IMG/VR virus record: IMGVR_UViG_3300046536_000720
Location: 1 to 50,520 of that record
Direction: 5' to 3' (one strand)
DNA: 50,520 bases
From: a virus
Shown here: positions 2,071-42,430 of the stretch, in pieces
How the letters are laid out: the number at the start of each line of letters is the position of its first letter
How positions within the stretch are numbered: the first letter of the stretch is position 1
Translations under genes and position numbers: made by a program
Notes under the pieces: generated by a model
What the model was told of the DNA's origin: nothing
The model's database searches: none
What the model saw: only the letters and a program-made list of their open reading frames with translations

Positions 2071-2475
2071 ATGATGGCTGTTATGGCTGATGAGACACGG
2101 ACCCGCGATGAGCTGTCCCGCCTGTGCAAGGAGCGCCGCGAGGGGCTCGGGCTCTCAATGGCCCAGCTCGCGGCAGCGACTGGAGACGAGACGCTCGCCT
2201 CATCGTGGATCGCGCGACTGGAGAACGGCCAGTTGCGGGATATCCCCCGCCGGGACCGCCTCGCCGCGCTCGCGCGCGGCTTGCGCCTCACCTACCAGAC
2301 CGTCGCCCGAGCAGCCGCCCAGCAGTTCCTCGACGTCGAGGAGGACGCGGTGTGGTCGCACGACGGCACCGTGCGCCTCGTGGTGGACCGCATGGGCGAG
2401 CTCGACGAGACTGGCCGGCAGGAGCTCGCCGAGATCGCCGAGCTGTTCGCAAGGCGCCGCAGTTCCAGCACATGA
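2071..2475 (+). CDS. XRE-family regulator, probable immunity repressor
   Basis: A 134-residue protein with an HTH at roughly residues 25-62 (LSMAQLAAATGDETLASSWI then RLENGQ) and a C-terminal helical part (VVDRMGELDETGRQELAEIA) that could dimerise. The ATG at 2071 follows GGGAGTAGAGGG. It diverges from the Cro-like gene and heads the rightward block that ends with the integrase, the usual place of a lysogeny repressor. It has no LexA-type protease domain, so induction would need an antirepressor such as the one at 8100-8885. Confidence 0.75.
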   Translation: MMAVMADETRTRDELSRLCKERREGLGLSMAQLAAATGDETLASSWIARLENGQLRDIPRRDRLAALARGLRLTYQTVARAAAQQFLDVEEDAVWSHDGTVRLVVDRMGELDETGRQELAEIAELFARRRSSST

Positions 2476-4615: not shown

Positions 4616-4646
4616 ATTCCGGATCGTCCCCGCGAGCGTGGGGAGG

Positions 4647-4889
4647 ATGTCCGCCAAGATCAACCTGACGGAGGGGCTCCTCGCCGAGCGCGCCGCCCTC
4701 GGCGTGCGCATCCGGACCCTGCGGACCCATCGCGGCTGGTCACAGGAACAGCTCGCCGAGCGGGCCGGCCTCGACCGACAGACCATCGGCCGCATCGAGC
4801 TCAGTACCCGCGGGCCCTCGATCGACGCTTACCTCGTCGTCGCCCAGGCGCTCGGCGTGCCGACCGCCTGGCTATTCCGGGACGAGTAA
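4647..4889 (+). CDS. XRE-family transcriptional regulator
   Basis: An 80-residue HTH_3-type protein, nearly all of it the DNA-binding domain (VRIRTLRTHRGWSQEQLAER, then AGLDRQTIGRIE). The ATG at 4647 directly abuts gggagg, too close for a normal ribosome site; a GTG at 4638 adds three residues, and a leaderless start is possible. It sits just downstream of a perfect palindrome, its likely own operator. It could control integration or the leftward cassette that faces it. Confidence 0.8.
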   Translation: MSAKINLTEGLLAERAALGVRIRTLRTHRGWSQEQLAERAGLDRQTIGRIELSTRGPSIDAYLVVAQALGVPTAWLFRDE

Positions 4890-5089: not shown

Positions 5090-5194
5090 CTACATCCAGT
5101 TCTCGTGGGTCAGTCTGTGATGATCGCCCCCGCACCGCTCGCATACGAGCGGCGTCGGCGGAGGCGGTGGCGGTGTCGGCTCGTCCGGCCTTAC
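5090..5194 (-). pseudogene. Start-less zinc-finger ORF after the terpene synthase operon
   Basis: An open frame of 34 codons ends in TAG at 5090-5092 and encodes a Pro-rich linker followed by CERCGGDHHRLTHENWM, a typical short Cys/His metal-binding tail. Its first codon would be GTA, overlapping the upstream TAA stop as GTAA and preceded by GGAAGG. Everywhere else in this genome the junction is GTGA, so one G-to-A change would turn GTG/TGA into GTA/TAA and remove the start. The frame has no ATG, GTG or TTG upstream. It is either a dead gene or one made from a non-standard start. Confidence 0.45.
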
Positions 5195-5373
5195 GGTCCT
5201 TCCGTGGGAGTGGTGATCAGTTGGCGTGCGGATTGCACGCCGAGGAAGAGCAGCAGCACGTCAGCCACGCTGATGGCCGGCCCGTCCGACCTGGGCCCAT
5301 AGAGGTAGCGGCCGACCACCGTTCGGCCGGCGCGGTGCGCCACCGCCAGCAGCGCGGGCGCGGGCGCCGTCAC
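5191..5373 (-). CDS. Small protein coupled to terpene synthase
   Basis: A 60-residue protein whose GTG start (5373) overlaps the terpene synthase stop as GTGA, so the two should be translated together. It contains a basic stretch (HRAGRTVVGRYLYG) and one hydrophobic segment (ISVADVLLLFLGVQSARQLI), which could associate with the membrane or form a helix against a partner. No family recognised. The tight coupling suggests a role with the synthase, but this is inference. Confidence 0.65.
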   Translation of the reverse strand: MTAPAPALLAVAHRAGRTVVGRYLYGPRSDGPAISVADVLLLFLGVQSARQLITTPTEGP

Positions 5374-6299
5374 GGTGCCGGCTCTGCGGGCGCGGCCAGC
5401 ACGTACCTGGAGCTCGCCGCCGTCCACTCGGCCAACGCCCGCCGGAACCGGTCCAGGTGCAGGGCGAAGCGGCTCGCGTCCAGGACCACATCGCCCGTCT
5501 CAGCCGCCGACTGGGGCGCGTCGGCCATCTCGCGGGCCGCCGTGTACAGCCACCAGTAGCGGAACTCCTCCGCTCGCAGCAGCTCCTGCACGCGCTCCCG
5601 CGCGACCCCGACCGTCAGGCCGGCCGTGCGGACGAGCGCCGCCACCGCAGTGAACGTGTCCCCAGGGCCGGCCGCGAGGTCGTTCGCCAGGATCCCGCAC
5701 ATCGAGAACGACCTGAGCAGCGACTGTACGAGCGGCGTCGACCAGTCCGGCGTGATGCACTGATGTGCGAGCTCGCACCACATCGCGGCCAGCACCATCC
5801 CGCCGTCGGCCGGCCGCAGCGCCAGGTACTCCCGCAGCGTCGGCGTCCGGGCCGGCTGTACGTAGCTCAGCAACTTGTCGGCGGCCGCGTGGAGCCAGAC
5901 CTCCAACTGCTCGCGGTACCGCACCCACCAGTCGCCGGGCATCGTCGTCTGGGTCCACACGACCAGGTCGGCGAGCGCCCGCACGGTCGGATGGTCGCCC
6001 AGGTGCGGCTGCTCGTCTTCGTACAGGACGTCGACCAGCTGGCCGACTAGCTGGCTGACCTCCTTGCGCGGTGCGTCGCGCAGTTCGGTGTCGAGCACGT
6101 CGTCGGCCAGCCATGTCCATAGGGCCCACTGGGTGGCCAGGTGCAGGGGCGCGCCGGTGGCGCCGGGCCACGCCCGCAGGCACAGGTTGACGTAGCCGTG
6201 GGCGAGGTACGTGTCCGGATCGGGGTGCAGGTCGTGCTGTGCCAGGAACGTCCGGGCGCTCAACGCCAGGTCGGTGGCGCGCGAGTCGGAGACCGCCAT
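5370..6299 (-). CDS. Class I terpene synthase
   Basis: This 309-residue protein has the signature of bacterial type I terpene cyclases, which ionise a prenyl diphosphate and cyclise the cation. Visible are the Asp-rich motif LADDVLDTE (D66, D67, D70), a candidate diphosphate sensor in EYLALRPADGG (R162) 44 residues before the second metal motif, NDLAAGPGD (N206, D207, A210, D214), and the C-terminal pair in WTAASSRY (R298, Y299). The second motif normally reads NDxxSxxxE; here Ser is Ala and Glu is Asp, so activity is uncertain. ATG 6299 overlaps the upstream stop (ATGA). No prenyltransferase, P450 or methyltransferase lies nearby, so host farnesyl or geranyl diphosphate would be the substrate. 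Confidence 0.85.
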   Translation of the reverse strand: MAVSDSRATDLALSARTFLAQHDLHPDPDTYLAHGYVNLCLRAWPGATGAPLHLATQWALWTWLADDVLDTELRDAPRKEVSQLVGQLVDVLYEDEQPHLGDHPTVRALADLVVWTQTTMPGDWWVRYREQLEVWLHAAADKLLSYVQPARTPTLREYLALRPADGGMVLAAMWCELAHQCITPDWSTPLVQSLLRSFSMCGILANDLAAGPGDTFTAVAALVRTAGLTVGVARERVQELLRAEEFRYWWLYTAAREMADAPQSAAETGDVVLDASRFALHLDRFRRALAEWTAASSRYVLAAPAEPAP

Positions 6300-6481
6300 C
6301 ACGACGCCTCCCCGGCATGCTCGGGGCAGGCGACCACGGCCCACGAGAGACCGTCGATCCGACGGTGGCCGGCCGGGCGTAGGTCGGTCATGGCCGGGCA
6401 GGCGATGCACTGCTGCTCATGCAGCTGGGCGTACGTGGGAGGCGCGGCGGCGGGCGCCGGGGCGCTACTCGGGGCGGCCAT
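6299..6481 (-). CDS. Small Cys-containing protein of the terpene cassette
   Basis: A 60-residue protein from ATG 6481. After an Ala/Pro-rich start it has QQCIACPAMTDLRPAGHRR and WAVVACPEHAGE, that is three Cys and two His that could form one zinc site. It overlaps the gene before it by 17 bases and the terpene synthase by ATGA. Similar very short proteins accompany XRE regulators in Streptomyces genomes; no function is known to me. Confidence 0.6.
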   Translation of the reverse strand: MAAPSSAPAPAAAPPTYAQLHEQQCIACPAMTDLRPAGHRRIDGLSWAVVACPEHAGEAS

Positions 6482-6635
6482 GGCGAGCGCCCCTGATCGG
6501 CTGTGCGATGGTGATCGGGCCGCCGTAGCCGAGCTCACCGGAGGCCGCGTCGAGCAGGTCGCGGCGTCGGGCCTGTTCCTGGGGGGTGCGAGGAACGCGT
6601 TTGGTGGGGGTGCTGCTGTGACGCTTCGCCGCCAT
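6465..6635 (-). CDS. Small basic hypothetical protein
   Basis: A 56-residue protein. ATG 6635 is preceded by AGGAGTGGCT, a good ribosome site, and is preferred to upstream starts that run into the hairpin at 6690-6723. The N-terminal half is Lys/Arg/Thr-rich (KRHSSTPTKRVPRTPQEQAR) and may bind nucleic acid. It overlaps the following gene by 17 bases and is first of the four-gene run that ends with the terpene synthase and its partner. Confidence 0.6.
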   Translation of the reverse strand: MAAKRHSSTPTKRVPRTPQEQARRRDLLDAASGELGYGGPITIAQPIRGARHGRPE

Positions 6636-6689: not shown

Positions 6690-6723
6690 CCCCGGAACTA
6701 CCACAGTTTGTGGTAGCCCGGGG
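6690..6723. promoter_or_regulatory. Long palindrome/hairpin upstream of the terpene cassette
   Basis: CTACCACA and TGTGGTAG pair perfectly around gtt (6698-6716), and ccccgg (6690-6695) with ccgggg (6718-6723) extends the structure across a small mismatch. On the minus strand it is followed by ...cgcttttgg. It lies in the 102-base gap between the XRE-TPR regulator and the terpene operon, so it may be a terminator for the regulator gene, an operator for the cassette, or both. Confidence 0.6.
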
Positions 6724-6737
6724 TAGCTGAAAAACGA

Positions 6738-7922
6738 TCAGATCCCAACCCATGCAGCCAGGTTGGTCAGCGAATCCGGCGCAGCCCGCCGCGCAGCCAC
6801 CAGACCAGCCACCGTCTCCCGGACCACCGGGTGGTAGCGCATCTGCTGCGGAGCCGCCGCCCGCGCCGCCTGGAGATTCCGCAGCGCCGCCTCGTTCTGC
6901 CCCACCCACAGCTGAGCCCTCGCCACCTCGGCCAGATGGTGGGAGCGGCGCGACGGCGGCCACCACTCCGGGATCACCACCTCGGCCGCCGCGCTCACCG
7001 CCTGCTGATACTGCGACAGCTCGGCCAACACGCTCACCCGGTGCGTCGCCACGTTCGTCGGCCCGAACGACAGCCAGTGGACCCGCTCGGCGGGCCCCGT
7101 CAGCTCCGCCACCCGGCCGGCCTCCGCCAGGTGGCTCTCCGCCCGGCCGCCATCCTGCGCCCGAGCAGCTATCACCGCCGCGCCAAGGTGCAGCTGACCG
7201 ACCGCCACATCCCGGACGCGGCTCGCCTCACCCTGCTGCAGAATCCCCAGGCCAGCCGTCACCAGGCGCTCGCCCGTGCGGTACTGGCCAGCCCGCAGGT
7301 ACACCAGCGAGCGCAGGTACTGCCGCACCCCGGCGAGGATCGGATCCGAGCCGCGCTCCGCAGCCCACGCCATCCGGTCGAGCGCCACCGCGCAGAGGTC
7401 CTGATACCCGAGCTTGGTCGTCACGTCGTAGGCGGTGCGGTAGGCGCTGGCCAGCACGGTCCACGCCTCGGCCGTGGGATGGGCGTGCGCGGCGGTCGTA
7501 GCCTCCGTGATCAGGCCGGGCAGCTCACTGGCGACGTCCCGCAGGCGCGTCTCCCGGACCGCGGCGCACAGGGCCTCCGCATGCGCGGCCAGCTCTGCCA
7601 CAGGGCGGGGAGCCACCTCGGGGTCCGCGCCGAGGTCGTACAGGTCGAGGGCCTCGCGGATCGGCTGGATCAGACCGTCCAGCTGATCCTGCTGCAGCTC
7701 GGCGAGGTACGGCTGGCCCGAGAGATCGCTGACCGGGACCTGGAGGGCTCGGGAGAGCGCACCGAGTGTGGCCGGGCTGGCGGGGCGTTCGCCCTGTTCG
7801 ATCTTCGTCAGAATGCTGTACGACAGGTGGGCGCGGTCCGCGAGTCCTCTCTGGGTGAGGTGGCGTAGTTTCCGGTAGTAGGCGATGCGCATGCCGGTGT
7901 GCTCTGGCCCGTGCTGGGGCAT
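6738..7922 (-). CDS. XRE-family regulator with TPR-like C-terminal domain
   Basis: A 394-residue protein. The HTH lies at residues 11-60 (MRIAYYRKLRHLTQRGLADR, then ILTKIEQGERPAS), followed by about 300 residues of Ala-rich helical repeats typical of TPR folds. This architecture is widespread among Streptomyces pleiotropic regulators and unusual for a phage repressor, which suggests acquisition from the host. ATG 7922 is the start; upstream in-frame codons overlap the terminator at 7993-8020. It is upstream of, and in the same direction as, the terpene synthase operon and is the likely regulator of it. Confidence 0.85.
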   Translation of the reverse strand: MPQHGPEHTGMRIAYYRKLRHLTQRGLADRAHLSYSILTKIEQGERPASPATLGALSRALQVPVSDLSGQPYLAELQQDQLDGLIQPIREALDLYDLGADPEVAPRPVAELAAHAEALCAAVRETRLRDVASELPGLITEATTAAHAHPTAEAWTVLASAYRTAYDVTTKLGYQDLCAVALDRMAWAAERGSDPILAGVRQYLRSLVYLRAGQYRTGERLVTAGLGILQQGEASRVRDVAVGQLHLGAAVIAARAQDGGRAESHLAEAGRVAELTGPAERVHWLSFGPTNVATHRVSVLAELSQYQQAVSAAAEVVIPEWWPPSRRSHHLAEVARAQLWVGQNEAALRNLQAARAAAPQQMRYHPVVRETVAGLVAARRAAPDSLTNLAAWVGI

Positions 7923-7992
7923 ACTGAACTCCGTTGCTCCGTTCCCGACTCGACATCTGGAACGGTACCCGCACTTCGCAGCGGGGAACACG

Positions 7993-8020
7993 GAAAGGGC
8001 CCTCATCAGAGGGCCCTTTC
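7993..8020. terminator. Bidirectional-looking hairpin terminator
   Basis: A perfect 12-bp stem (7993-8004 with 8009-8020) with a four-base loop; the stem ends in ttt on either strand. It separates the antirepressor gene from the XRE-TPR gene, both leftward. Confidence 0.7.
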
Positions 8021-8056
8021 GCGTGCTGAGACTTCTCCCGACCCCGGGCACGACGA

Positions 8057-8099: not shown

Positions 8100-8885
8100 T
8101 CAGATGATGCGCTTCTGCCGCCACAAGTCGTCGACCAGGTCCAGCCCGCGAGCTGTCGAGTAGACCACGGGGTAGCTCACGCCCTTCCCGTTGCTCTCCA
8201 TCTTTACCTCGAACAAGCCAGACTGCTGATGGGCCGCCCTCGGCATGTTCCGACCACCCCCGCTCGCCGACACCTGACGCCTGAAGACACTGATCTCCAC
8301 GAGCCAGTTCGTCATCGTCTTCACGTCCGTCTTGAGCAGGTCGGCCAGCTCGCGCATTCCGATCAGCCCTTCGGCGTTGAGGAACGCATCCCACTTGCCA
8401 GCCTTCGGGGCCGCCACCTCCAGTTCCTTCGCCAGTTCCTGCTCGCGCTCAAGTACTGCGAGGTACTGCCGGGCCATCTCGATCTCGGACATGGGCCGGC
8501 TCGTGGCGACCTCGGCAGCGCGCGTCTGCATGGCGAAGTACGACTGCGCGGCCGCTACCGCCGGCTTGTTCGGGTCGCCGTTCATCGCCACGAGGTAGGC
8601 GGCATAGCGGCTCAGCTGATAATCGGCACGAGGAGCGCCACCTGTGGCTTTTTGCGTGACCGCACAAAAAGCCTGGTCAGAGTATGTGCCGGTGTTCTCG
8701 GAGGAGCGGATCGCGCGGCGAACGACCTCGTCGAAGTCCCGCCACTGCGCGTAGCCCATGATCGGCTGGAGGTCGCGGGCGGACCAGTACTCCTGGCCGT
8801 AGTCGTCGGTGCGGCGGATCCGGTCGAACGGGCTGCCCCCACTCGCGCTGGCGGGCTCGGGCAGGTTACCGTTGAGGTGAGACAT
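8100..8885 (-). CDS. Phage antirepressor (DinD-like N-terminus, KilAC-type C-terminus)
   Basis: A 261-residue protein. The N-terminal 130 residues follow the DinD/BRO pattern (EYWSARDLQPIMGYAQWRDF, later YQLSRYAAYLVAMNGDP and AQSYFAMQTR). A coiled segment (EREQELAKELE) leads to a C-terminal KilAC-like DNA-binding domain (IGMRELADLLKTDVKTMTNW). Such proteins inactivate phage repressors or, in the DinD case, interfere with RecA. It is transcribed alone with terminators behind it. Because the repressor here lacks a self-cleavage domain, this is a good candidate for the inducing factor. Confidence 0.85.
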   Translation of the reverse strand: MSHLNGNLPEPASASGGSPFDRIRRTDDYGQEYWSARDLQPIMGYAQWRDFDEVVRRAIRSSENTGTYSDQAFCAVTQKATGGAPRADYQLSRYAAYLVAMNGDPNKPAVAAAQSYFAMQTRAAEVATSRPMSEIEMARQYLAVLEREQELAKELEVAAPKAGKWDAFLNAEGLIGMRELADLLKTDVKTMTNWLVEISVFRRQVSASGGGRNMPRAAHQQSGLFEVKMESNGKGVSYPVVYSTARGLDLVDDLWRQKRII

Positions 8886-9106: not shown

Positions 9107-9823
9107 TCAGGGATGACGCAGCAGACCGAGCGCCGTCGTTGACGGTGACGGGCTCGGGACCTGCGACGAGCACGTGTACTGCGGATTCGCGGGATCGAAG
9201 CCGGCCGCCCGGGAGCACGTGTACTGGGTGCCGTTCGACGTGAACGTCCAGCCCGCAGGCGGCTGGCCGGCCGCGCCGGGAGCCCCAGCGGGTCCTATGG
9301 CGCCCGGGGAACCTGCCTCGCCGGGAGGACCAGTCGGGCCGGGCGAACCTGGCGCACCCTCAGGCCCCGCCGAGCCAGCGACCCCTGGCAGCCCTGTAGG
9401 GCCAGGGATCGTCGAGTCCGCCCCGCGAGCCCCGGCCGGACCGGTAGGGCCCGCCTCAGTCGAGCCCGCCCCCGCCGGACCCGTGGGCCCAGCCGGACCG
9501 GACGGACCCGCCGGACCCGCCGGACCGGTACTTCCCGGAGAACCCGGATCCCCGCGGTCACCGGATGGACCCGGAGCCCCGGTATTGCCCGGATCACCGC
9601 GGCTCCCGGGAGGCCCCGCGACCGGCTGGCCACCCATCTGCTGCACCTGCCGCGCCAAGGCATCCCGCGCAGAGTTCGCCTGCAGCAGGGAGGAACTGAG
9701 ACTGTGCAAGGTCAGCAGCACCCAGACCAGGACGACAAGGACCGTGGCGACGGTCGCCACATACAGCACGTCAGAACGCCGCCGCCTGGTCGACGTGCGC
9801 CTCGCTCTCTCAGGGACCGTCAC
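9107..9823 (-). CDS. Collagen-like membrane protein
   Basis: A 238-residue protein with a basic N-terminus, one transmembrane helix at about residues 20-42 ([20 protein letters not shown]), a short coiled stretch, and then about 120 residues of Gly-X-Y repeats ([10 protein letters not shown] type), ending in a domain with two Cys ([16 protein letters not shown]). The repeats would form a triple helix outside the membrane. The GTG start overlaps the upstream stop as GTGA. It is the last gene of the lysis block. A structural collagen-like fibre is an alternative, but the membrane anchor argues for an envelope role. Confidence 0.85.
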
Positions 9824-10488: not shown

Positions 10489-11331
10489 TCAGTGGGTGAT
10501 GGGGGCGTTCCAGGCCGCAGCCCAGGTCAGCGGACCGACGACGCCATCGGCGCCGAGGCCCTTCTCCTGCTGGAACTGGCGGCACACGCCGTCGGACTGG
10601 TTGCCGTACCAGCCGTCCACGGTGATCGGCCAGCCGCGGTCGGACATGCGCTGCTGCCAGGTACGGACGTGGTCGTCGTGCAGCATCGGGGACTGCAGAC
10701 GCAGGTACTCGCCGGGCCACGGCGGACCCGCCGGGACCGGGGCAGGCTGCGGAGCAGGGGCCGGCTGCGGCGCGGGCGCAGGGTCCGGGGTGGGCTGAGG
10801 CGCCGGGGCCGGGGCCGGGGAGTTCGGCCGAGGGGCACCCGCCTGGACCCAGGCGTACAAAGGCCCGCCGGGGCAGTCGGTGGCGTAGCCGTCCCGGTGA
10901 CCCTTGATCTCCGGGCCCGCCCCGTTGGCCTGGAGCCACTCGATCGCGTCCCGCAGGCCGCTGAGCATCGCGTCCGTGGGCTGGGTCAGGCCGCCGGCGT
11001 CCGAGCCGAGCAGGCCACACACCGCGAAATGCGCGTGGTTCAGCGGCTGGTTGCCGTTCGCCCCCGTCTCCTTGCGCAGGCCGCGGCCCTCGAACACGTA
11101 GCCGTGCGGGCACACGCCGGCGTTGTAGGCGACGTCGACCCAGTGCTGCACCGGGTCGGACATGTGCATCGAGCGGATGTTGCGCCAGAGCTGGACGCAC
11201 TGGTCGTGATCGCCGAGCAGGGCGAGGGGAACGTTCCCTCCCTCGTAGTGGACCTTCACGCCGAGAGTGGTCGGCTGGTCGGCGGCCGGTGTAGCTGGCC
11301 AGCCGAAGTCGGCACGGGTGACGAGCATCAT
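10489..11331 (-). CDS. Endolysin: N-acetylmuramoyl-L-alanine amidase with peptidoglycan-binding domain
   Basis: A 280-residue lysin. The N-terminal PGRP/amidase_2 domain (residues 15-165) shows HYEGG (H28), VAYNAGVCPHGYVFEGRG, an LNHAHFAV segment and GHRDGYATDCPGG (H145, C153), consistent with a zinc amidase. A Pro/Ala linker at about 168-205 leads to a PG_binding_1 domain (LRLQSPMLHDDHVRTWQQRM then GWYGNQSDGVCRQFQQEKG). ATG 11331 overlaps the stop of the peptidase gene (TGATG), so the two are translated together. Confidence 0.9.
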   Translation of the reverse strand: MMLVTRADFGWPATPAADQPTTLGVKVHYEGGNVPLALLGDHDQCVQLWRNIRSMHMSDPVQHWVDVAYNAGVCPHGYVFEGRGLRKETGANGNQPLNHAHFAVCGLLGSDAGGLTQPTDAMLSGLRDAIEWLQANGAGPEIKGHRDGYATDCPGGPLYAWVQAGAPRPNSPAPAPAPQPTPDPAPAPQPAPAPQPAPVPAGPPWPGEYLRLQSPMLHDDHVRTWQQRMSDRGWPITVDGWYGNQSDGVCRQFQQEKGLGADGVVGPLTWAAAWNAPITH

Positions 11332-12158
11332 CAGGAGACTCCGTTCTTCGTGGCCCAGGACTGCAGGGATCGATGGGCGGCCAGCACGTCCGCGTCCACG
11401 GACGGCGATGGAACAGGCGTCGGCGTCGGGGCAGGCGCCCACGCGGGCACGGTGACGTCGCCCTGCTGGGAGAGCAGCCAGGCCAGGTCCGCCGCGGTGA
11501 AGTAGCCGTAGCCCTGCTGGCCCCACGATGCACCCCAGGAGTTGGCGACCCAGTACTCACCGGCGGCTGCGTCGTACCGACAGATCGTCAGCTCGTGGCC
11601 GCCTGCGATGCCGCTGGCCCTGTCGACCGGGATACGGCCGTCCGCCGCCGGGGTGAAACTGCTGTTGAGCCACGGGATGCCGATCATCGCCGAGCCAGCC
11701 TGGAGCGCCGAGTTCAGCGCCGCCATCGAGAAGGCGTGCGAGTAGCTGACGGCGAGGCCGAGCACCTGGAGCGCCTTGGCGACGCCGATACCGGACGAGC
11801 CCGTGTCCGTAGGCGGGTACTGGCCGCTGACCCCGTCCAGGATCGTCGCCAGGCTGTACAGGGCCACGGCGAAGGTCTCGTCCAGCGCATGCACGCCAGC
11901 CGTGAACAGGCCGTGGCTCGCCGCGGCGCCGGCCGCCGAGATCGTCACCGAGGTGCTCGCGGTCCGGCCAGCCGAGTCCGTACCCAGCCAGCCCGTCCCG
12001 GCGTTGCCGGTGCAGCTGCCGAGCTGGCCTTGGTCGAGGATCGGCGTCCGACGAGCCCAGTCCACCGACTGGATCGCCGAGCTGGGCAGCACGCCGTGCG
12101 CGTACGCCAGGCTCCTCGGGTCGTGCTCGACATGGCGGCCGAGCGAATATGAGGTCAC
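11331..12158 (-). CDS. Papain-like (C1 family) cysteine peptidase
   Basis: A 275-residue protein with the full papain catalytic set: [13 protein letters not shown] (oxyanion Q43, nucleophile C49, the same six-residue spacing as papain Q19/C25), [10 protein letters not shown] (H188) and [17 protein letters not shown] (N206, W208). There is no signal peptide; a Pro/Thr tail with a short helical end follows residue 238. GTG 12158 has GGAGG six bases upstream. It is the first gene of the lysis operon, directly coupled to the amidase, so it may cut wall peptides or be an additional lysin; a host-directed protease is the alternative. Confidence 0.85.
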
Positions 12159-12235
12159 GATGCCTCCGAATAGATGATCACGCGAACGGGTCTCCTCTGG
12201 TACAGAGTTGTGGTGGTTCTGTCGCCCCACGGGTG

Positions 12236-12241
12236 TACCGT
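12236..12241 (+). promoter_or_regulatory. Candidate -10 element (TACCGT) for rightward gene
   Basis: TACCGT lies 28 bases before the start of the rightward gene at 12270 in the 108-base divergent gap. The same hexamer or its variant TACGGT precedes the other two rightward single genes (26552-26557 and 31478-31483). No convincing -35 box is present. Confidence 0.3.
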
Positions 12242-12269
12242 CAGCGCACAACGAGCCCAGGGGGGAATG

Positions 12270-12833
12270 ATGTTGACGATGAACAGACGGAGTTGGGTGG
12301 CCCTGAGTGCAGCGGTCGTCATCGCCGGCGGCAGCGCAACAGCGGTAGCCCTCACCGCTGATGGCAGCAGCCGGCCAGCGGTGCAGGTCGTTCAGGTCGG
12401 GGATGCGGCGCCGGTGGCGACGGACACGCCGAGCGCGTCCGGGAGCGTCACCGCGCCGGCCGCCGCCGCGGCGGCGCCGAGCAGCGCCACGGCGGACCCG
12501 ACCCCCAGCCCGAGCAGCACCGAGCCGAAGCCCAGCCCTACGAACCCAGCGAGTCGGCAAGCCGCAGCAGCCCCCAGCCCGACGAAGGAGACGACCATGA
12601 GCACCCCGCAGGCCCCCATGGACGATCCGTCGGCCTCGACCCCGGCCCCCAGCACCGCGCCGCCAGCCACCGAGGCGCCCACGGTCGCCACCACACCGCC
12701 CGTCCCAGGCTCAGCCGGGGAAACCGCAGGTCAGAACAACGGCGGCGGCGGCACCGTGGACCACGGCCCCTACCCCAGCCGGGCCCCCGACCCGACGAAC
12801 GCCCCCACCGTCGGCCCCACCACCACGCCCTGA
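12270..12833 (+). CDS. Secreted Pro/Ser/Thr-rich protein
   Basis: A protein of about 187 residues. A basic start and a hydrophobic segment ([20 protein letters not shown]) form a signal peptide or anchor; the rest is low-complexity Ala/Pro/Ser/Thr, like cell-surface stalks. The start among ATG 12267, 12270 and 12279 is not certain; 12270 best fits AGGGGG upstream. It is a lone rightward gene between leftward lysis and tail genes, which marks it as a moron-type gene possibly expressed in the lysogen and altering the host surface. Confidence 0.7.
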
Positions 12834-24619: not shown

Positions 24620-25681
24620 TCAGCTCACCTTCAGGTTGCGCATGACGCCGCAGGCGCGGGTGTTGCGCAGCACGCCGGCGATCGGGCCCATCTCGACCTC
24701 GCCGCTCTTGACCGCGCCGGGGAGCTCGAAGTTCGGCATGTAGGTGTTGACCAGCGGCTGGCCAGCGAGACTCGCGCCGTGCAGCGCGTCCAGGCCGAAG
24801 GACACGGCGTACAGGTCGGTCAGGCCGGAGATGTTGCCGCCCGCGCCGCCGCCGTCGGGGTCGCGGGTCTGGATCGGCACGATCGGGCCGGTGCCGAGCG
24901 CCCGGTCACCGGTGTCGACGAGGACCCACGGGCCGTAGCTCTCGACCATGCGGCCGAGGTCGTCCTTCTCGGCGGTGTACATCGCCGCCCACCTGGCCAG
25001 CGCCCGCACGCGGGTGATGCTCTGGGTGTTGCCGCAGATCGCCTTCATACCAGGCGGGAGGGCACCGGCTACGCCCGCGTCGCCGCCACCGGTGTGGCTG
25101 GGGACGATCGTCGACAGGAAGCTGTCGAGCTGGTCCAGAGCGGCCATCGCCAGGGACTGGGAGTTGATGGTGCCGGGGGTCCAGTCGAGGTAGCCCGTGG
25201 CGGTGCCGTTGTTGATGGGCAGGTACTCGGTGTTCTGGCCGGTCAGCGACTTGTCGATGCCGTCGAAGCCGCCGTCGGTGCTGGAGTCGCCGAGGAAGAA
25301 CTGCTGGATCGCCATCGTGCGGATGGACGTGAGCAGTTGCTGGGTCTGGAACGCGACCTCGTTGGTCGCGGCCGGGCCGAGGCGGGCCAGGGTCCGGTCG
25401 ATGTCGAACGAGCCGCCGAGCGGCTTGAGGTCGACGGTGAACCGCTGACGCTGCGCCTGACCGGCGGTGTACTCCTCGTTGTAGTTGCGGAACGAGGCGT
25501 TGCGGGCGGTGGTGAGGCGCGTGTACCCGTAGGTGAGGGTGCCGCCGCCGGTCCCGGGGGTGACGCTGTCGTCAAAGACGATCTGGTCGAGGAACCACGA
25601 GTAGCGGCGCAGGTTGTCGATGACGGCGTAGTCGATGTCGTTCTGGGTGTTGATCGCCGCCTGAGCGAGCGTGACGGGCAT
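24620..25681 (-). CDS. Major capsid protein
   Basis: A 353-residue protein directly after the scaffold gene. The sequence has the HK97-type layout: N-terminal helix (LRRYSWFLDQIVFDDSVTPG), an E-loop region, then the long central helix (TNEVAFQTQQLLTSIRTMAI) and a C-terminal P-domain segment. No protease gene lies nearby and no clear delta domain is seen, consistent with the separate scaffold. Confidence 0.85.
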   Translation of the reverse strand: MPVTLAQAAINTQNDIDYAVIDNLRRYSWFLDQIVFDDSVTPGTGGGTLTYGYTRLTTARNASFRNYNEEYTAGQAQRQRFTVDLKPLGGSFDIDRTLARLGPAATNEVAFQTQQLLTSIRTMAIQQFFLGDSSTDGGFDGIDKSLTGQNTEYLPINNGTATGYLDWTPGTINSQSLAMAALDQLDSFLSTIVPSHTGGGDAGVAGALPPGMKAICGNTQSITRVRALARWAAMYTAEKDDLGRMVESYGPWVLVDTGDRALGTGPIVPIQTRDPDGGGAGGNISGLTDLYAVSFGLDALHGASLAGQPLVNTYMPNFELPGAVKSGEVEMGPIAGVLRNTRACGVMRNLKVS

Positions 25682-41326: not shown

Positions 41327-42430
41327 TCAGGCGGGCGGGTTGGCAAGCCGGTCGTGCTGCTCGGCGGTGAGGAGGCCTGCGGCTTGCCACTGGTCCAGCA
41401 GATCGGTCTGGCCGGCGAGCTGCGGCGCCACGGTGCACGAAGAGCACAGGCGGCCCGCGGCGCCCGCAGGGGCCGTGCCGCCGTTCTTCTGACCCCAGTG
41501 GCAGTACTTGATCCCGGCCTCTTCGGCCGCGGCTTCCAGGGCGCGCAGGGGCGCCGCGGCCTCCGGGTAGAAGAACTCGACCTCGTCCAGCTCGCCGTCC
41601 TTGGCGTAGGCGCCGCACAGGCATTCGCCGGACATGTGGAGGTGCTCGGTGACCTCGTTCAGGGGCAGCGCGCCCGGCGTGCACAGGCGGTGCTCAGCGT
41701 GCTCATGGTCGAGCTGGCAGCGGTGGCGGCCCCGGTACTCGGTCATGTGCGCGTTCGTCCAGTGGACGAGCGGCGACACCCAGACGATCGAGCCGTCCAC
41801 GTCGGTGGCTTCGGCGTTGCGGAAGCGGCGCTCCGTCTCGGCCCAGCGCATCCCGCCCAAGTAGGCGATCCGCCGCCGCTCGGCCCGCGGCAGACGCTTC
41901 TGGTCGCCGAGCACGCTGGCGCGGAACGTCATCAGCGGCTCGTGCTTCAGCTGCCGGTACATCACCTTGTGGCCGGCCGGGCCGGGGAAGCCCTTCCAGA
42001 TGGGGCGGACGCCGGCGTTCGGGCCGGTGCCGGCGATGACCTTGCCGAGGACCAGGTCGGCGTAGGCGTTGCGTGGGTGCAGCTCGTGCAGGGTGTCGCC
42101 CCAGGCGGCAGCCACGTCCTGCACGTACTGGGTGGTCTGCGGGATGCCGGTGCCGGTGTTGACGTGCAGGACGGCGTCGTATCGGCCGCGGAGGAGGTGC
42201 CCGACGGTCGCGGAGTCGTTGCCGCCGGAGGAGAGCCAGTACGTGCCGACGATGGGGTGGGTGGCGAGTGCCTCGTCGAGGATCTCGTGCGAGCGGGCGA
42301 TGGCCTCGTCGAGGGTGCGGGCGACGTGCTCGCCGTCGATCGCCTTGGGCGGCTGCTTGGTGAGGACGTCGGGCATGCCGGGGAACATGTCGCCGGCCGG
42401 CGGCTTGTTGCGGTTCGAGCGGGCGGACAC
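41327..42430 (-). CDS. PAPS reductase-like / PP-loop protein
   Basis: A 367-residue protein of the adenine nucleotide alpha-hydrolase fold. The PP-loop is LSSGGNDSATVGHLL (S68-S73), followed by LHVNTGTGIPQTTQYV and the RIAYLGGMRWAETERRFRNA segment that in PAPS reductases and DndC binds substrate. Cys270, Cys272, Cys310, Cys329 and Cys332 could hold an Fe-S cluster or zinc. Phage members are common but of unproven function; sulfur transfer or base modification are possibilities. No dnd partner genes are present. Confidence 0.8.
   Translation of the reverse strand: MSARSNRNKPPAGDMFPGMPDVLTKQPPKAIDGEHVARTLDEAIARSHEILDEALATHPIVGTYWLSSGGNDSATVGHLLRGRYDAVLHVNTGTGIPQTTQYVQDVAAAWGDTLHELHPRNAYADLVLGKVIAGTGPNAGVRPIWKGFPGPAGHKVMYRQLKHEPLMTFRASVLGDQKRLPRAERRRIAYLGGMRWAETERRFRNAEATDVDGSIVWVSPLVHWTNAHMTEYRGRHRCQLDHEHAEHRLCTPGALPLNEVTEHLHMSGECLCGAYAKDGELDEVEFFYPEAAAPLRALEAAAEEAGIKYCHWGQKNGGTAPAGAAGRLCSSCTVAPQLAGQTDLLDQWQAAGLLTAEQHDRLANPPA

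Follow-up and report, generated by a model that had tools for sequence, protein, structure and literature searches.

Does a temperate phage carry a terpene synthase, and if so, what could such an enzyme do for the bacterium that harbours it? The question is raised by a gene in a 50,520-nucleotide stretch of viral DNA (IMG/VR record IMGVR_UViG_3300046536_000720; hereafter the window), for which an original prediction, made from the letters alone, had described a class I terpene synthase with a full set of cyclase motifs. The features on which the following paragraphs draw are:

2071–2475, plus strand: XRE repressor candidate, 61% identical to the repressor at the same place in phage L005
2606–2875, plus strand: small conserved immunity-region protein; a homologue adjoins the integrase of phage L005
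3000–4421, plus strand: large serine integrase with Resolvase and Recombinase domains (PHROG 95, integrase)
4638–4889, plus strand: small XRE protein, transcribed towards the synthase operon
5191–5373, minus strand: small ORF of 60 aa, whose GTG start overlaps the synthase stop (GTGA)
5370–6299, minus strand: class I terpene synthase-like protein of 309 aa (Pfam PF19086, AF2, Foldseek)
6299–6481, minus strand: small CxxC protein of 60 aa, whose stop overlaps the synthase start (TGATG); present upstream of most relatives
6465–6635, minus strand: small basic ORF of 56 aa from the ORF list, overlapping the start of the CxxC ORF
6698–6716, no strand: perfect 19-base palindrome CTACCACA-GTT-TGTGGTAG, between the regulator and the synthase operon
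6738–8051, minus strand: XRE-family regulator with a helix-turn-helix and a long C-terminal part (PHROG 5823)
8100–8885, minus strand: phage antirepressor (Bro-N and ANT/KilAC), from domain and PHROG matches
10489–11526, minus strand: endolysin, on the lysis side of the slot (PHROG 1493, E 3.6e-53)
24620–25681, minus strand: major head protein, sharing 82% identity with its counterpart in the synthase-bearing prophage of genome G211

The synthase-like gene lies between the integrase and immunity side of the phage and its antirepressor and lysis side; tail, head and terminase genes follow beyond the lysis genes. The flanking integrase and repressor, and the antirepressor and endolysin, confirm the predicted position between the lysogeny and lysis blocks. 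The record has no terminal repeats, and a search of 70 Kitasatospora genomes for a prophage with the same serine integrase gave best matches of only 32–43% identity. The window is most likely a temperate phage of Kitasatospora, a host that we infer.

The gene coordinates and leftward frame had been given correctly: the ORF starts with an ATG at 6299, stops at 5370 and encodes 309 aa. Its G+C content at the three codon positions (0.74/0.53/0.90) is typical of a gene. The protein matched Pfam Terpene_syn_C_2 (PF19086) with 74.3 bits (E 1.4e-20), against a curated cut-off of 23.7, and it scored far below the cut-offs of NCBIfam models of characterised synthases. Searching PDB with a profile of 27 relatives matched 59 distinct synthase chains (best E 6.5e-23). 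The original prediction had proposed structure prediction as a check, and the AlphaFold (AF2) model was confident (pLDDT 92.1, pTM 0.90) and all-helical. Its top Foldseek match was T-muurolol synthase (TM ~0.83, E 5.5e-12), and the best solved structural matches were T-muurolol, geosmin (N-terminal), pentalenene and epi-isozizaene synthases. The all-alpha class I fold was recovered at a Foldseek TM of ~0.83 to 9hqi, as a predicted rather than a solved fold. Together, the Pfam, PDB profile and AF2/Foldseek matches settle the class I terpene synthase ancestry and the fold as modelled, and to this extent the claim of a class I terpene synthase was borne out.

The active-site residues that had been named are indeed present. 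Of 34 aligned sequences, 33 belong to the family and one is an outgroup. D66, D67 and D70 of the Asp-rich motif (DDVLD, residues 66–70) were invariant in all 34, as were the candidate diphosphate sensor R162, N206 and R298, while Y299, the second residue of the C-terminal Arg-Tyr pair, was found in 33. The textbook second metal motif of class I synthases is N-x3-S/T-x3-E/D. Here the prediction stood for the Asn but not for the remainder of the motif. Position N+4 is Ala210 in the window protein, and across the 33 family members it is Ala in 30, Ser in two and Asp in one. The acidic residue preceding the conserved F216 shifts from N+7 to N+13 among relatives, and on this alignment it cannot be a ligand at a fixed, helix-borne position. 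In the AF2 model, the helix spanning residues 189–209 ends just past N206. The outgroup synthases L070 and L071 retain a canonical N-S-E, so that the change is probably derived within the family. The claimed full set of cyclase motifs was therefore overstated by one element, as the NSE triad is degenerate family-wide. In known synthases, degeneration of this triad weakens or abolishes activity. Judged by its residues, the window protein is a variant within the class I synthase fold family rather than a canonical cyclase, because it lacks the complete second metal triad. Bacterial class I synthases (PF19086; T-muurolol synthase, the N-terminal domain of germacradienol/geosmin synthase and pentalenene synthase) share its fold, Asp-rich motif, sensor Arg, Asn and Arg-Tyr pair, but are only ~20% identical to it by structure alignment. 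They also differ in that the window family lacks the Ser/Thr and Glu of NSE and has a shortened loop after N206, and in that the window gene is carried by a phage, where it is linked to an XRE regulator and coupled to the gene for a CxxC protein. The altered metal site provides a natural test of how much of the NSE triad is required for class I chemistry.

In the window, the synthase-like gene belongs to a small, translationally coupled operon behind the XRE regulator, a feature that the original prediction had missed. The 56-aa basic ORF, which had no match in a Pfam search, is the probable first gene of this operon, followed by the CxxC protein and the synthase. CxxC proteins of the same type occur at the loci of phage L007, the GAS204B prophage (L004) and L045, and at chromosomal loci. 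The 60-aa ORF at 5191–5373 had no similarity to the small downstream protein of relatives. We found no consensus promoter for the palindrome-led operon. Since the palindrome is 3′ of the regulator gene and 5′ of the operon, it may be an operator or the terminator hairpin of the regulator gene. In the 70 Kitasatospora genomes, CTACCACA-N3-TGTGGTAG had a single exact match, upstream of the chromosomal synthase L063. A search of the window for a second copy, as a repeated operator, gave only the one occurrence and none near the repressor or integrase. A scan of 2.9 million viral contigs gave 20 perfect matches to the palindrome, plausibly due to chance in so much DNA. The regulator adjoining L063 is 85% identical to that of the window and the 19-mer is identical, yet the two synthases are only ~57% identical. 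Neither a modifying enzyme, such as a P450, nor a prenyl diphosphate synthase was found beside the window synthase.

Relatives in host genomes show that this arrangement recurs. Within Kitasatospora, eight of the 70 genomes searched contained the family, in two to six copies each, some of them partial, and copies from one genome tended to cluster in the family tree. Samples of 395 family-level and 392 order-level genomes, for which five candidates per genome were scored and single misses are thus possible, yielded no further true members; the one additional sequence, from genome G343, was an outgroup. At most loci the synthase start overlaps the stop codon of a gene for a CxxC protein of ~50–70 aa; after the synthase there is often another small protein, joined to it by a GTGA overlap. 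In 25 of 32 loci, at least one of the three genes preceding the synthase encoded an XRE regulator no shorter than 200 aa, versus three of 216 more distant genes. The type of regulator differed by locus (XRE-TPR, XRE-DUF5753 and others), and NUDIX, HAD, DUF6879-like and DUF397-like genes recurred nearby. In synthase-free genomes, relatives of the window regulator precede different cargo, in some cases with a CxxC protein in between. The patchy and multi-copy distribution in hosts therefore identifies the synthase as one of several cargos of an exchangeable accessory cassette. A fixed regulator–synthase pair was considered and rejected, as the regulator P0005 of a plasmid homologue is unlike that of the window and P0003 and P0004, the small proteins downstream, are dissimilar. 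Genome G179 has a second, distant terpene synthase-like gene (L046, 9152–10246, minus strand) at a distance of 0.9 kb from one of its family members.

Known systems of similar build exist in Streptomyces. The whiJ/abaA/bldB paralogues and XRE-DUF397 pairs (Scr1/Scr2) share with these loci multi-copy XRE regulators, small partners and variable neighbours. As in Streptomyces XRE loci, the synthase of the G211 prophage and several chromosomal synthases adjoin DUF397-like, DUF6879-like and other XRE genes. The window differs in that its XRE regulator is present without DUF397 or DUF6879, and terpene synthases are not mentioned in the abstracts of two papers on the Streptomyces loci (PMC10294661, PMC6262351). 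According to these papers, the loci affect development and antibiotics, which makes host-directed effects plausible here as well.

From these observations we consider it reasonably probable that the window represents a temperate Kitasatospora phage with an exchangeable, terpene-making cassette, in which an XRE regulator and then a palindrome precede an operon where genes for small proteins and for the synthase-like enzyme are translationally coupled. In a lysogen, the regulator would release the operon under some condition, and the enzyme would bind a host prenyl diphosphate, probably FPP. By comparison with class I synthases, Mg2+ would be held by the Asp-rich motif, partly by Asn206, and with Arg162. 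The substrate would then be ionised and lose its diphosphate, giving a terpene or terpene alcohol that is probably small. We infer that the lysogen would produce this terpene and benefit from it, and infection may in this way supply a bacterium with a small molecule that is new to it. The degenerate NSE triad, and the lack of a P450 or a prenyl diphosphate synthase beside the gene, count against this reading.

Alternatively, the protein may consume or sequester prenyl diphosphates rather than make a terpene, as a growth-slowing, superinfection-blocking or toxin–antitoxin-like effector that the XRE regulator and the coupled small proteins restrain. This is unlikely, but several observations fit it: the degenerate NSE triad, the coupled small proteins, and a family that is multi-copy, patchy, prone to turnover and includes partial copies. 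Prophages and genomes that lack the synthase have unrelated cargo behind this regulator and CxxC protein, as would be expected of swappable effectors. PMC6262351 describes XRE-DUF397 pairs as proposed toxin–antitoxin systems, but the pair tested there, Scr1/Scr2, did not behave like one and instead raised antibiotic production. The synthase had no match in PADLOC, and hence a defence role has no support from that search, and its diphosphate-handling residues are conserved as in synthases.

A more doubtful proposal is that the protein is a catalytically dead member of the synthase fold, retained as a regulator, a ligand sensor or a partner of the XRE protein. Ala at N+4 and the unfixed acidic position are consistent with this, as are the near-constant XRE neighbour and the role of chromosomal XRE loci in governing Streptomyces development and antibiotics (PMC10294661 and PMC6262351). 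Against it, proteins of ~50–60% identity scarcely vary at DDxxD, the sensor Arg, Asn206 and the Arg-Tyr pair, a conservation that would be needless in a dead enzyme.

We see a slim chance that the product is a terpenoid signal sensed by the adjacent XRE regulator, with lysogeny or expression of the cassette following lysogen density, by analogy to arbitrium with a terpenoid in place of the peptide. If true, the terpenoid would be the phages' own signal and would tie lysogeny to the number of nearby lysogens. A regulator with a long C-terminal half does adjoin the synthase, close to the repressor, integrase and antirepressor, and the joint conservation of this regulator and the 19-mer at L063, beside a more divergent synthase, would agree with sensing. 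However, the regulator family changes between loci, and the palindrome, unrepeated near the repressor and integrase, may be a terminator.

Comparison with other phages supports the view that the gene belongs to the phage. The original prediction had proposed a search for homologues with the same neighbours. INPHARED gave none, but five other distinct phages or prophages carried a homologue in the same slot, with the lysis genes on one side and the integration site on the other, making six with the window and upholding the claim of true phage carriage. The search for these relatives was seeded by a Kitasatospora plasmid homologue 58% identical to the window synthase, and a two-row alignment of both recovered L005/L006, L007 and L004. 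L005/L006 is an IMG/VR phage from two metagenomes that is identical over the compared stretch. Its gene order is lysis, XRE regulator, synthase, attP core, tyrosine integrase and repressor, and the attP core between synthase and integrase matches the tRNA-His att site of the G211 prophage at 28 of 29 bases, a layout as in a non-integrated phage. The IMG/VR contig L007 has a 127-bp exact terminal repeat, which suggests that it is a complete genome. In four of the six phage loci, a small XRE protein of the type found at 4638–4889 lies downstream of the synthase.

The remaining three loci (GAS204B, NBC_01266 and G211) are bounded by exact att repeats. In Kitasatospora sp. GAS204B, 44-bp repeats lie at contig positions 193712 and 244252, the latter being the end of an intact tRNA-Thr, and the synthase (from 242139) is inside them. 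The G138 chromosome, presumably that of Kitasatospora sp. NBC_01266 in view of identical plasmid coordinates, has 76-bp repeats at 3400719 and 3436614 with the synthase inside. In the G211 prophage the synthase is again enclosed, by 29-bp repeats at 4167061 and 4214441, of which the latter falls at a tRNA-His. The GAS204B and NBC_01266 prophages thus offer a tractable system for lysogenic conversion by a small molecule; in addition to the prophage copy, GAS204B has three copies in its chromosome and NBC_01266 has one on a plasmid. An origin of the gene as host DNA, through misassembly or an over-long provirus call, has next to no probability: the record does lack terminal repeats and relatives are multi-copy in a few host chromosomes, but phage modules flank the gene on both sides and are collinear with relatives on each, making assembly error very unlikely for the window, and the same-slot copies in five other phages, three of them within att repeats, exclude it for those relatives. 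The GAS204B prophage shares its tRNA-Thr site with a tandem neighbour, an apparent integrative plasmid-type element (L073, contig G001:C3, ~189400–193811) with replication-like, excisionase-like and integrase-like genes.

We also compared phages that share structural genes with the window. The structural genes of the G211 prophage are collinear with those of the window and mostly 52–82% identical at the protein level, versus only 37.5% for the synthase. The prophage in genome G109 has the same structural genes, in a genome without a synthase of this family, and its slot contains an XRE-TPR gene, a small CxxC protein and another protein. In the family tree, in which some forks are weak and some branches long, a single phage clade was rejected (p-AU about 4.8e-46), and the six phage copies required six label changes. 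The rejected single clade and the swapped synthase in related phages show that the synthase is cargo that phages have gained more than once. Purifying selection acts between relatives, with dN/dS values of 0.14–0.56; wider pairs are near saturation. A prophage-like contig (L144, G203:C345) has an endolysin-like gene, a window-type regulator (65%), a CxxC protein and a phage-type small XRE gene without a synthase, and thus the same slot with other cargo.

Soil actinomycetes have terpene volatiles as a hallmark, and transfer of the underlying genes from strain to strain is known. Repeated gains by phages, always in the same slot, suggest that a prophage profits from terpenoid chemistry or from controlling prenyl diphosphates. 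As it is retained along with the prophage, the cassette would act as a conversion (moron) gene from a Kitasatospora-specific family. Like the morons of temperate phages, the synthase is an extra gene between the lysis genes and the attachment site that varies among related phages, being inside att-bounded prophages, present in G211 and absent from the related G109. Known moron cargo consists of toxins and surface or defence proteins. The window departs from this in its cargo, as we could not find the terpene synthase gene class in any catalogued bacteriophage: neither tblastn in INPHARED nor the searches of PHROGs and BFVD gave a phage homologue. A megablast of window positions 1–25000 against catalogued phages matched only 88 bases of the antirepressor. 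No report of a phage terpene synthase was found in the literature, by a search that was thin on subscription papers and is weak evidence of absence. For 4,831 actinobacterial prophages, a Mn/Zn transporter gene is the sole exception named among annotated functions (PMC9903846). The only good viral match in BFVD was the synthase of Orpheovirus IHUMI-LCC2, a viral precedent with characterised function (Jung et al. 2023, doi 10.1021/jacs.3c10603, cited in PMC12797696). It resembles our case in being a terpene synthase encoded by a viral genome. However, Orpheovirus is a giant virus rather than a bacteriophage and does not perform lysogenic conversion, and its synthase is 14% identical to the window protein, with a TM of 0.64.

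Other genes of the window drew our attention as well. Between the antirepressor and the lysis genes is a collagen-like protein with Gly-X-Y repeats (9107–9823, minus strand; Pfam Collagen, E 1.2e-15). Adjoining the endolysin is a protein with a papain-family cysteine protease domain (11331–12560, minus strand; E 4.5e-06), and a similar protein is found at the same place in the G109 prophage. A PAPS-reductase-like protein (41327–42430, minus strand; PHROG 424, Pfam PF01507, E 2.6e-06) is possibly another accessory metabolic gene.
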